Shown: positions 50,973-55,716, counted from the first letter of the stretch. The stretch: 64,000 bases of DNA from Chloroflexota bacterium (GCA_026709625.1 JAPOSR010000041.1:19732-83731); one strand, 5' to 3'. Numbers and translations: made by a program. The notes: generated by a model from the sequence alone, not told the origin.

Positions 50973-51950
<978 letters not shown>

Positions 51951-52031: not shown

Positions 52032-52205
52032 TCAAGGATCGTTGTTGTCCAGCCCGCTGAGTGTAAAAGCGAATACCAGAGCGAGCATCGCGCCGGTGGG
52101 CATGCCCAGCGCCACATTGCCGATGATGATGCCAAATATGACGCCGACAGCCAACCCGCAAGCGACGCCAGCCATAAACAGCAACTGCGTCGAAGGCGGC
52201 CTCAC
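52032..52205 (-). CDS. Small membrane protein (57 aa, GTG start, overlaps cyclase stop)
   Basis: VRPPSTQLLFMAGVACGLAVGVIFGIIIGNVALGMPTGAMLALVFAFTLSGLDNNDP; GTGA overlap. Confidence 0.65.
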   Translation of the reverse strand: MRPPSTQLLFMAGVACGLAVGVIFGIIIGNVALGMPTGAMLALVFAFTLSGLDNNDP

Positions 52206-53956
52206 GGGCGCGCCTCGCTATCGTCAAGCGAGATTCGATACAATACAGCGAACTGCTGGAAGCCGTCTGGCGCTTTTGTGGGCTGAAAAGGCTGGGCGCG
52301 AATGCGCTCGCCCACCAGCGCATAAGTCGTCGGGCTGAGGACAATCTCGCCAGGTTCGGCATTTTCTTGCAAGAACTTGCTGGCGCTGGCTGCCTCGCCC
52401 AATACGGCATATTCACTGCGCTGTGTGCCACCCACCATGCCCAGCACAGCCGGCCCGGTGTGGATGCCGATGCCAAAGTGCAGCCGGTGGTCGGGCTGGA
52501 GCACAGTGTGCAAAGCCCGCGCAGCCGCCATGATGCCTTGCGCCGCGCGCAGGGCTCGAATGGCATGGTCTTCCTGGGGATTTAGCTGCGTATTCCACGA
52601 GGCTTTGATGGCATCGCCCAGGTATTGGTCGACGATGCCGTCTTGGGCGTCGATCGCATCGCTGGCTGCGCCCAAATAACGGTTGATGATGCGCATGAGG
52701 TCTTCGGGCTGCAATGTCTCGCTAAACGCGGTAAAGCCACGCACATCAGCGAACATGGCGGTGATGGCGCGTTCGACCGGGCTGGTATCCAGCGTGTCAA
52801 TCGAGCCGATGTTCGCCAGCAGCGCCTCGGGGATAAATGTGCCCAGCAGGCGGCGCTGCTCTTCTTGCTCTTTGCGCTCGGTCAAGTCGTCGATCACCAG
52901 CGCCAGGCCAGAAATCATCCGGTCATCGCCACGCAGCGGGCTGGCCACCACCTGCCAATAGCATTCGCGCTCCATGTGGCAAAAGCGCTCAGCCCAGATA
53001 TGTGGGGTGTGCTCGCGGCGGACGCGCTCAATCTCGGCGTAGAAATCGCTCGATACCGGCGGCAGCAAGTCGGACAAGAGCAGGCCAATCGCCGCTTCAG
53101 CGCTCTTGCCTGTCAGGGCTTCAGTCGCCAGATTGCACATGATGACGCGATCTTGACTGTCGATGGTGATGATGCCCGAGCCAATAGACGCGAAGATATT
53201 GGACAAGCGCACCTGCATCTCTTCGATCAGCGCCGTTTGCGCGCGGATTTCTTCAAACAAGCGGGCGTTTTCGATGGCCACAGCGGCTTGCTGGCCGAAG
53301 CTGGTCAACAGGTTCAGTTCGTTTTCTTTGAACAAGCCAGCCATGACGCGGTTGTCACAGTAAGCCACGCCGATCAGTTGGTCGCGCGCTTTTAGCGGCA
53401 CCGCCAAAATGCTGCGCAGGTTGAAGCCGACGATGCTTTCGCTGGCGCTGAGGTTGTCGTCGGCTCCCGCGTCCATGGTCAACACCGCCTCGCCAGTCGC
53501 CACGACCTGGTTGATGACCGACCAGCTGACGATGCGACCGCCAGCCGCGGTTTCTTCTGCGCTCAAGCCCCGAGCGACTTTGAACTCCAGCTCACCCGTG
53601 TCATGATTTTTCAGCACGATATAGCCGCGCTCGGCTTGGGTCAAGCTGATTACGGTGTCGACGACCTGGTTGAGCACCTGGTCGGTTTTTTGGGTGGAAT
53701 TGATAAGGGCGGTGGTTTCTGCCAGTCGGCGGAGCTGCGCCAGCTGCATTTGCGTGTCGACCATATCGACCGAGAGTCTGTCGATGCTGCTGCGCAGGTT
53801 CCACAGACGGTCGACCGCGTCGCTGGGTAGGCGGATGCCGCGGCGGCGCAAAAGCTGCTGCTGCTGCTCAAGCAGCGTCTTGACTTCGTCGGCGCGCTCT
53901 TTCAACCCGCGCAGTTGAGCTTGAAGCGCGCCAAATGCGCTCGTCCCGCCAGTCAT
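52202..53956 (-). CDS. GAF-PAS-class III nucleotide cyclase homolog, protein A (metal Asp retained, Asn/Arg lost)
   Basis: GAF LTQAERGYIVLKN; PAS IFASIGSGIITIDSQDRVIMCNLATEALTG; cyclase AITAMFADVRGFTAFSE...DQYLGDAIKA...YAVLGEAASASKFLQ; ATG 53956. Confidence 0.9.
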   Translation of the reverse strand: MTGGTSAFGALQAQLRGLKERADEVKTLLEQQQQLLRRRGIRLPSDAVDRLWNLRSSIDRLSVDMVDTQMQLAQLRRLAETTALINSTQKTDQVLNQVVDTVISLTQAERGYIVLKNHDTGELEFKVARGLSAEETAAGGRIVSWSVINQVVATGEAVLTMDAGADDNLSASESIVGFNLRSILAVPLKARDQLIGVAYCDNRVMAGLFKENELNLLTSFGQQAAVAIENARLFEEIRAQTALIEEMQVRLSNIFASIGSGIITIDSQDRVIMCNLATEALTGKSAEAAIGLLLSDLLPPVSSDFYAEIERVRREHTPHIWAERFCHMERECYWQVVASPLRGDDRMISGLALVIDDLTERKEQEEQRRLLGTFIPEALLANIGSIDTLDTSPVERAITAMFADVRGFTAFSETLQPEDLMRIINRYLGAASDAIDAQDGIVDQYLGDAIKASWNTQLNPQEDHAIRALRAAQGIMAAARALHTVLQPDHRLHFGIGIHTGPAVLGMVGGTQRSEYAVLGEAASASKFLQENAEPGEIVLSPTTYALVGERIRAQPFQPTKAPDGFQQFAVLYRISLDDSEARP

Positions 53957-55716
53957 GCGCTTCGCTGCACCTCGTAGGCATTCATGCCCGTCGAAAGCCC
54001 TTTGCCATAGATCGGCGCGCGGGCGATGAATTCGAATGGCGGCTGGCGCTTTTGCAAGAGAATAAGGTCCAAAGTGGGCTGGCCGATCGTGACGCTGCCG
54101 CGGCGGGCGTTTTCTTGCATGCGCTTGGCCGTGTTTATGGTATGCCCCAGCGCCGTGAACTCGCGCCGGCGAAAGCTGCCGATATTGCCCAGGGTGGCCA
54201 CGCCGCTGGCAATGCCGACGATATAAAAATGCGGCTCGGGCGCAATGCCCAGCTCGCTGTAGAGCTGCAAAAAGCGATCGCGCATCAGCAAGCCGCATTC
54301 GACAGCCTGGCGGGCGTGCTGCTCATCCGGGTTCAGCTGCGTGTTGAAAAGCGCCATGACCTCGCTGCCCATGTATTTGTCGATGATGCCGCCCGCGTCG
54401 TGAATGCAGCTGGTGGCAACCGCTTGATACTGGTTGAGGATGCGCAAGGTTTCGCTGGGCGCGACATCAGGCAGAGTCGTCCAAGGGCGCACATCAGCAA
54501 AAAGACAGCTGACCTCGCGCCGCATGCCGCCCATCTCGATATTGGCGATTTCGCTGATTTGGTCCACCATGCCTTCAGGCAAGATCCGCTTCATGGCATT
54601 GATGGTCGTTTCATGCTCGCGCAGGTGCGTTACATCGTCCATCACCAACGTTACGCCCTGCGTCATCTGGCTGCGGTCTTTCAATGGAGAAAAAGACATG
54701 GAAAGCGCCACAGGCCCCCTGCCCGGCAGCTCGGCAAGCATATTGAGCGTGTGGTCATCATCTTCTTCTTTGACCAAGCGCAGTTCTTCGCTGAGCTGCA
54801 GAGCCGCCTCTTGCAAGACACCCTGCAGCTGCCGTCCCAATACAGAAGCTGGCGGCAGGTTGAGGATGTCGCCAGCGGCGCGGTTGAAGGTATGCACCAG
54901 GTCATTGGAATCGATGGCGATGATGGCGCTGCCCACCGACGAAAAGATATTGTCCATCAACTCCTTGACGCGTGTAATCTCCGCCAAGATCTGTTCAGCC
55001 CGGCTGTACATGCGGGCATTGTTGATAGCCACCGCCGCCACATTGGCAAATGCCATCAACAGCGTCAGCTCGCGCTCAGTGAAGATGCCCGCCATCAGCC
55101 GATTGTCGACATAGACCGCGCCGATTGATTGGTCTTTGAAGCGCAGCGGCACACACAGCACCGACCGCAATGTGAAATTGGCGATGCTCTGGCTGTCAGA
55201 CCAGCGCTCGTCCTGGTAGGCATTGTCGGCTAAAAGAGGCTCGCCGCTGCTAATGACCTGGTTGACCACCGACATGCTGATCTGTGGTGGCGAGCCATCG
55301 GGCGTGGACAGCCCCAGCAAACCGCTCTCGCTGCTGATGCGGAAGTCGTATTGATCGCTGTCTTCCCTGGTCAAAATAATGTAGCCGCGTTCGGCTTGGG
55401 TCAGCAAAATGACCAGCTCCATCGTCTCTGCCAAGACAGTATCGGCATCCAGCGAGTTGGTCATGCGCACAGCCATCTCGCCCAATGCGCGAAGCTGGCG
55501 CAGTTCGGTCTGTTCCGCCAGCACGTCCAATTCCAGCCGCTTGAAATCTGCTTGCAGGTGGCTGAAGCTGGTGAGAACAGCCGACGGCATCGCCAGTCGA
55601 TGATTGCGCAGTTGGTCGCGCTGCACAGACAAGGCGGCTTCAACCTGCTTGATTAGATCGTCAAGCTGTCGCAGGTCGCCAAGCAGGCTGGCAGCGCCGT
55701 TAGAGGTGTCGTTCAT
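53953..55716 (-). CDS. GAF-PAS-class III nucleotide cyclase homolog, protein B (Lys/Thr/Asn/Arg retained, second metal Asp lost)
   Basis: GAF LTQAERGYIILTR; PAS IFSSVGSAIIAIDSNDLVHTFNRAAGDIL; cyclase EVSCLFADVRPWTTL...DKYMGSEVMA...FTALGHTINTAKRMQ. Confidence 0.9.
   Translation of the reverse strand: MNDTSNGAASLLGDLRQLDDLIKQVEAALSVQRDQLRNHRLAMPSAVLTSFSHLQADFKRLELDVLAEQTELRQLRALGEMAVRMTNSLDADTVLAETMELVILLTQAERGYIILTREDSDQYDFRISSESGLLGLSTPDGSPPQISMSVVNQVISSGEPLLADNAYQDERWSDSQSIANFTLRSVLCVPLRFKDQSIGAVYVDNRLMAGIFTERELTLLMAFANVAAVAINNARMYSRAEQILAEITRVKELMDNIFSSVGSAIIAIDSNDLVHTFNRAAGDILNLPPASVLGRQLQGVLQEAALQLSEELRLVKEEDDDHTLNMLAELPGRGPVALSMSFSPLKDRSQMTQGVTLVMDDVTHLREHETTINAMKRILPEGMVDQISEIANIEMGGMRREVSCLFADVRPWTTLPDVAPSETLRILNQYQAVATSCIHDAGGIIDKYMGSEVMALFNTQLNPDEQHARQAVECGLLMRDRFLQLYSELGIAPEPHFYIVGIASGVATLGNIGSFRRREFTALGHTINTAKRMQENARRGSVTIGQPTLDLILLQKRQPPFEFIARAPIYGKGLSTGMNAYEVQRSA

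Follow-up and report, generated by a model that had tools for sequence, protein, structure and literature searches.

In mammalian transmembrane adenylyl cyclases, C1 supplies the metal-binding Asp residues and C2 the base-recognition, Asn and Arg residues. Of the two sites in such a C1/C2 unit, one is catalytic and the other degenerate (PMC3591389). In soluble guanylyl cyclase (sGC), key residues are split between alpha and beta, which leaves either homodimer inactive; the isolated catalytic domains of the human enzyme also homodimerize, again without activity (PMC3591389). The RGC/NeoR rhodopsin guanylyl cyclases of chytrid fungi are obligate heterodimers too; there, no known catalytic residue is missing from RGC1 or RGC2, and heterodimerization is not explained by residue complementation (PMC8815786). 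As regards bacteria, a 2022 review describes class III adenylyl cyclases as homodimerizing, with monomers that contribute equally to two productive sites, and gives a fused dimeric class III cyclase as unknown in this domain (PMC9552081). Searches of the open-access literature turned up no bacterial class III cyclase assembled as a heterodimer from two genes. The distribution of the two half-sites over two subunits is otherwise known from animal enzymes.

The locus described here lies in a 64,000-nucleotide stretch of DNA, the whole of which is referred to below as the window, from an uncultured Chloroflexota bacterium of an order within the Anaerolineae. This bacterium is probably sponge-dwelling; bin names suggest that many of its relatives' bins are sponge-derived. 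On the minus strand of the window, the upstream gene B (53953-55716; 587 aa) is followed by the downstream gene A (52202-53956; 584 aa), both encoding GAF-PAS-class III cyclase proteins. The two genes overlap by ATGA (53953-53956), where the 3′ end of B (...CGA AGC GCA TGA) meets the 5′ start of A (ATG ACT GGC), the ATG of A at 53956 being internal to the longest open reading frame (52202-54298). Translational coupling is a likely consequence of this overlap, which we propose favours equal synthesis and co-assembly of A and B. Open reading frames and Pfam searches thus bear out the paralogous, ATGA-overlapping GAF-PAS-cyclase genes described in the first-pass annotation, which had been made from the sequence alone. 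All GAF, PAS and Guanylate_cyc domains exceed the Pfam thresholds, located at residues 90-231, 258-366 and 401-581 in B, and at 91-227, 254-362 and 396-548 in A, with E-values for Guanylate_cyc (PF00211) of 6.7e-15 in A and 7.4e-11 in B. AlphaFold single-chain models (mean pLDDT of 78.9 for A and 80.7 for B) display class III folds, with target-normalized TM-scores of approximately 0.75-0.89 against the catalytic domains of bacterial cyclases such as CyaC, Cya2 and CyaB and against related catalytic cores; for B, the scores to Cya2, CyaC and CyaB are close to 0.8. By PF00211 domain as well as by fold, A and B are therefore both class III nucleotidyl cyclases; their nearest solved relatives in sequence and fold are Cya2 (2w01), CyaC (1wc0-1wc6) and CyaB (3r5g), and the Foldseek matches of both models include sGC chains.

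Active-site residues, numbered from the ATG of each protein, were placed by alignment with homologues and with the solved cyclases Cya2 (2w01) and 6fht. In the order metal 1, substrate Lys, metal 2, specificity, Asn and Arg, A carries D404, Q444, D448, A517, S524 and F528, while B carries D408, K447, S451, T521, N528 and R532 (all codon positions that follow are on the minus strand). A is the "metal" subunit (C1/alpha-like): it keeps Asp404, the first metal Asp, in FADVRGF (52745-52747; D in 91/91 A proteins) and Asp448, the second, in DQYLGDA (52613-52615; D in 91/91 A and 0/122 B proteins), and has lost the substrate Lys to Gln444 (52625-52627, as placed by the alignments), the transition-state Asn to Ser524 (52385-52387; Asn in just 16% of A proteins) and the transition-state Arg to Phe528 (52373-52375; Arg in 0/91). 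B is the "base/transition-state" subunit (C2/beta-like), in which Lys447 (54376-54378; K in 122/122 B proteins), Asn528 (54133-54135; N in 122/122) and Arg532 (54121-54123; R in 122/122) are kept and the second metal Asp is replaced by Ser451 in DKYMGSE (54364-54366; Asp in 0/122, with N in 71, T in 26, S in 20 and other residues in the remainder). At the specificity position, B has Thr521 (54154-54156; T in 115 and S in 7 of 122), and with its invariant Lys it thus possesses the Lys plus Thr/Ser specifying pair of class IIIb enzymes. The motif strings originally read for A and B were correct residue for residue in these alignments, and the complementary losses claimed from them lie at the expected columns. 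A shift of the alignment that would hide the missing residues was rejected, A and B occupying the same columns in independent alignments.

Neither protein therefore has all catalytic residues on one chain, as a homodimeric-type cyclase would; A lacks the Arg in 91/91 cases and B the second Asp in 122/122, and the full set for a dimer is supplied by A and B jointly (90/90 pairs) and by neither alone. One subunit provides the metal residues and its homologue those for base recognition and the transition state, leaving a degenerate pseudo-site; this is a residue division of the C1/C2 or alpha/beta type. Judged from these sequences, A and B would together make up a class IIIb adenylyl cyclase that is an obligate heterodimer, with one of its two sites catalytic and the other degenerate, a reading to which we assign a probability of about 0.88.

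With protein B as the query, relatives were detected in 147/298 genomes of the class and 144/151 genomes of the order, all records being Anaerolineae/Chloroflexota metagenome bins. Nearly all matching genomes of the order contain two copies; a single copy is present in 9/9 genomes of family f6. Both sites are fully readable in 90 of the 120 two-copy loci, the other 30 being cut by the end of the locus or contig (most of them inside A). In every one of these 90 readable pairs, which represent six families of the one order, A has both Asp residues, B has Lys, Thr/Ser, Asn and Arg, and no residue is missing from both partners. The first-pass annotation had inferred one complete A+B site opposite an incomplete one, and had suggested that homologous loci be surveyed for co-conserved complementary losses; these losses are complementary in 90/90 pairs and, at the level of residues, the A+B site is complete in 90/90 and the opposite composite site in 0/90. 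Losses from A comprise Arg in 90, Asn in 75, Thr/Ser in 26 and Lys in 4 of the pairs, and those from B comprise the second Asp in 90 and the first, which is kept in the window, in 48. Decay of the pseudo-site is thus uneven, with Lys kept in 96% of A proteins and Asn kept in A of family f4, which we count against the heterodimeric reading. Among single-copy relatives, the site is complete in all 43 proteins inspected (15 families, with 3 proteins from f6, a sister family within the order). Chance is excluded as the origin of the complementary pattern, given its conservation in 90/90 pairs and the completeness of 43/43 single-copy relatives.

Apart from contig ends, A and B were not found separately from each other in the loci inspected; in the three loci where B stands alone (L122, L140 and L156), a contig end is close by on the side expected for A. 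Two observations had been named at the outset as evidence that would overturn the heterodimeric reading, namely a solitary A or B protein bearing these same residues and a shifted alignment, and both were sought without being found. A narrow DNA pattern for the B-type motif matched 2/399 genomes of the phylum, both from the family of the window, this pattern being too strict to prove absence. All 120 pairs lie on one strand with B first, and a candidate start for A is located between -20 and +60 nt of the B stop in 108/120. The window neighbours of the pair, namely a Cu/Zn-efflux-like permease, a TIGR03943 protein and an FAD oxidoreductase, are conserved only within the genus. That the pair is kept together while its surroundings change points to a joint function; the neighbours themselves, common to the genus only, say little and were dropped as a clue to function.

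An unbiased scan of every column conserved in the single-copy relatives, comparing 91 A with 122 B proteins, recovered the second Asp (100% in A vs 0% in B), the Asn (100% in B vs 16% in A) and the Arg (100% in B vs 0% in A). It also uncovered the P-loop Gly (98% in A vs 3% in B) and, with the same trend, the P-loop Phe (100% in A vs 31% in B). A C-terminal K/R-G pair, which we interpret as the C2 triphosphate Lys region, is 99% basic and 94% Gly in B and approximately 81% basic and 44% Gly in A (the Gly being position 573). The division therefore exceeds the six residues initially considered and tracks the two faces of the class III site.

In a tree of 67 full-length proteins, SH-aLRT supports were 97 for the A clade, 99 for the B clade and 100 for A and B as sisters, with the single-copy f6 proteins outside. 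Support is weak (51) for the branch that joins the f6 proteins to the pair, such that the exact outgroup is not settled although the grouping of A with B is. Families recur as clades in both halves of the tree. This topology indicates one tandem duplication older than the families carrying the pair, after which A and B were co-inherited. The second Asp of B and the Arg of A were each lost once, at the base, and the first Asp changed at least 4 times within B, a pattern expected of a pseudo-site that can decay freely. Values of dN/dS for A/B in unsaturated comparisons were 0.16/0.10 (window vs L033), 0.07/0.16 and 0.03/0.04; both genes are under purifying selection, and pseudogene decay of either is rejected by these values together with the conservation of the proteins. 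At the single-copy loci, the cyclase genes, which are of the ancestral type, often adjoin a Ser/Thr protein kinase-like gene, with a large conserved ORF just upstream (L053 2895-5342 and 1-1806, with similar ORFs at some 20 other such loci), a context that was not seen around the duplicated pair.

The pair resembles mammalian transmembrane cyclases in that A corresponds to C1 (metal Asp) and B to C2 (base recognition, Asn and Arg), and it would likewise have one catalytic and one degenerate site. Unlike C1 and C2 of these eukaryotic enzymes, which share one polypeptide with membrane domains, A and B are separate soluble proteins of GAF-PAS type, encoded by overlapping bacterial genes that go back to an independent duplication. 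With sGC, the pair shares two separate homologous subunits and sensor domains ahead of the cyclase domain; it differs from this animal enzyme, which forms cGMP and senses NO by H-NOX, in having GAF sensors and the Lys/Thr of class IIIb adenylyl cyclases in B. Since sGC catalytic domains homodimerize inactively, the residues alone do not imply exclusive A:B pairing. RGC/NeoR likewise places two different sensors on one cyclase output, but with catalytic residues all kept rather than complementary. The homodimeric Cya2, CyaC and CyaB have all residues on each chain and two equivalent sites, a type that the single-copy Anaerolineae relatives fit and the residue-dividing A/B pair does not. Being encoded by two genes, the pair also falls outside the sAC/ADCY10 and transmembrane lineages, which have two cyclase domains on one polypeptide. 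Its resemblance to C1/C2 and to sGC alpha/beta is convergent, because by descent the pair lies within the Anaerolineae bacterial GAF-PAS cyclase family.

Single-chain proteins with two cyclase domains were also encountered in genomes of the same order (L241 1509-4688, L242 333-3560, L243 1465-3981, L244 1449-3077 and L245 1640-6391), at least that of L241 being sAC/ADCY10-like. In the proteins of L241-L244, the metal Asp is retained and Asn/Arg are lost in domain 1, with the reverse in domain 2 (FADVSGFT...GDA vs YTVMGDDVNLAARL). As read from these residues, cis pseudo-heterodimeric cyclases thus also occur in bacteria. Such ADCY10-type tandem cyclases show the same division as the pair, i.e., metal side in domain 1 and base side in domain 2; they differ in being single polypeptides of another architecture, from a lineage separate from that of the GAF-PAS pair.

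Other accounts of the pair were weighed against an obligate heterodimer. Both copies could be non-catalytic pseudoenzymes that act through protein-protein contact as GAF/PAS-gated scaffolds or regulators, as might be supposed from the catalytic incompleteness of each chain by itself and from the few cyclic-nucleotide receptors in the genome. Complementary preservation of catalytic residues is not expected of a scaffold, however, and the residues of the composite site are invariant (D and D in 91/91 A; K, N and R in 122/122 B) whereas their pseudo-site counterparts drift to many letters; we thus consider this account very unlikely. Less likely still is that one subunit forms a non-canonical homodimer (A with its Gln/Ser/Phe, or B with its substituted metal site) modulated by the other. 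Some mycobacterial class III cyclases do use non-canonical substrate-specifying residues, so that a Gln in place of the Lys need not by itself make a protein inactive, but most A proteins lack both transition-state residues and all B proteins one metal Asp; moreover, each partner keeps its own half intact, and the two are not found apart save at contig ends.

That A and B might find their partners among further class III cyclases of the same cell, and not in each other, would be compatible with the 4-8 PF00211 matches in other genera of the family. In the genome of the window, however (G000; 3.24 Mb, 96.7% complete), A and B are the sole PF00211 proteins found, and no match outside the pair was present in 3/4 other genomes of the genus checked (G190, G297 and G383), the fourth having one extra weak match below the family cut-off. 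As A and B are also adjacent in 120/120 two-copy loci with congruent family-level clades, we find this last account scarcely credible. No PF00211 protein was detected in five genomes of the family checked that are without the pair (genera g6, g8 and g197); these five (G177, G212, G374, G395 and G414) each encode 2-3 cyclic-nucleotide-binding proteins.

For the preferred heterodimeric cyclase, we envisage that a single-copy homodimeric GAF-PAS cyclase was duplicated in tandem in the ancestor of most families of this Anaerolineae order. In the downstream copy A, the transition-state Arg would have gone first, followed by other residues of the base side; the upstream copy B would have lost the second metal Asp and P-loop Gly, then often the first Asp. 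A and B would form a wreath-like dimer, with an interface that we infer by homology to class III cyclases, in which one full site is built from Asp404, Asp448 and the P-loop GF of A with Lys447, Thr521, Asn528, Arg532 and the basic residue 572 of B. Conversion of ATP to cAMP is the reaction expected for this site from the class IIIb Lys/Thr pair of B. The second site, without metal Asp on its B side and Arg on its A side, would be dead, perhaps with a regulatory role, and no activity would be expected of A:A or B:B dimers. With a GAF and a PAS sensor on either subunit, two inputs would meet on one output, with the modules of A and B presumed to sense different signals. More tentatively, and at somewhat less than even odds, the pair may represent a naturally evolved bacterial trans-heterodimeric adenylyl cyclase that serves as an AND-type (or antagonistic) integrator of signals from two differently sensing subunits. 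Its dead pseudo-site would then bind an allosteric ligand in a new role; the enzyme would be convergent with mammalian C1/C2, and the survival of an undivided sister lineage would open its evolutionary steps to testing.

An obligate-heterodimer design appears to have evolved independently in these bacteria and been kept across many genera. Its evolutionary record is clear, running from complete single-copy relatives through one duplication and the primary losses to repeated secondary decay of the dead site. The cis tandem forms lessen categorical novelty, but they do not detract from a trans version whose undivided sister lineage is still present. With this pair, how pseudo-heterodimeric cyclases arise and what they are used for become open to direct test; it would also illustrate how a single second-messenger output can be made to depend on two sensors, and it is a candidate split cyclase for engineering.

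One cyclic-nucleotide-binding protein was found in the genome of the window, a SulP-type transporter with a CRP-like C-terminal domain (L091 16-1854); this low number is counted against the heterodimeric reading, and the transporter is a possible effector of the cyclase pair. Linking the pair to receptors by presence and absence was uninformative, cyclic-nucleotide-binding proteins being present also in genomes without it. In the window itself, the permease at 50973-51950 resembles Cu/Zn efflux transporters of the SO_0444 family, with a match that falls short of the family cut-off, and contains a long His/Asp-rich loop (HDHDHDHD) arising from a simple repeat; it is followed by the TIGR03943 permease subunit.
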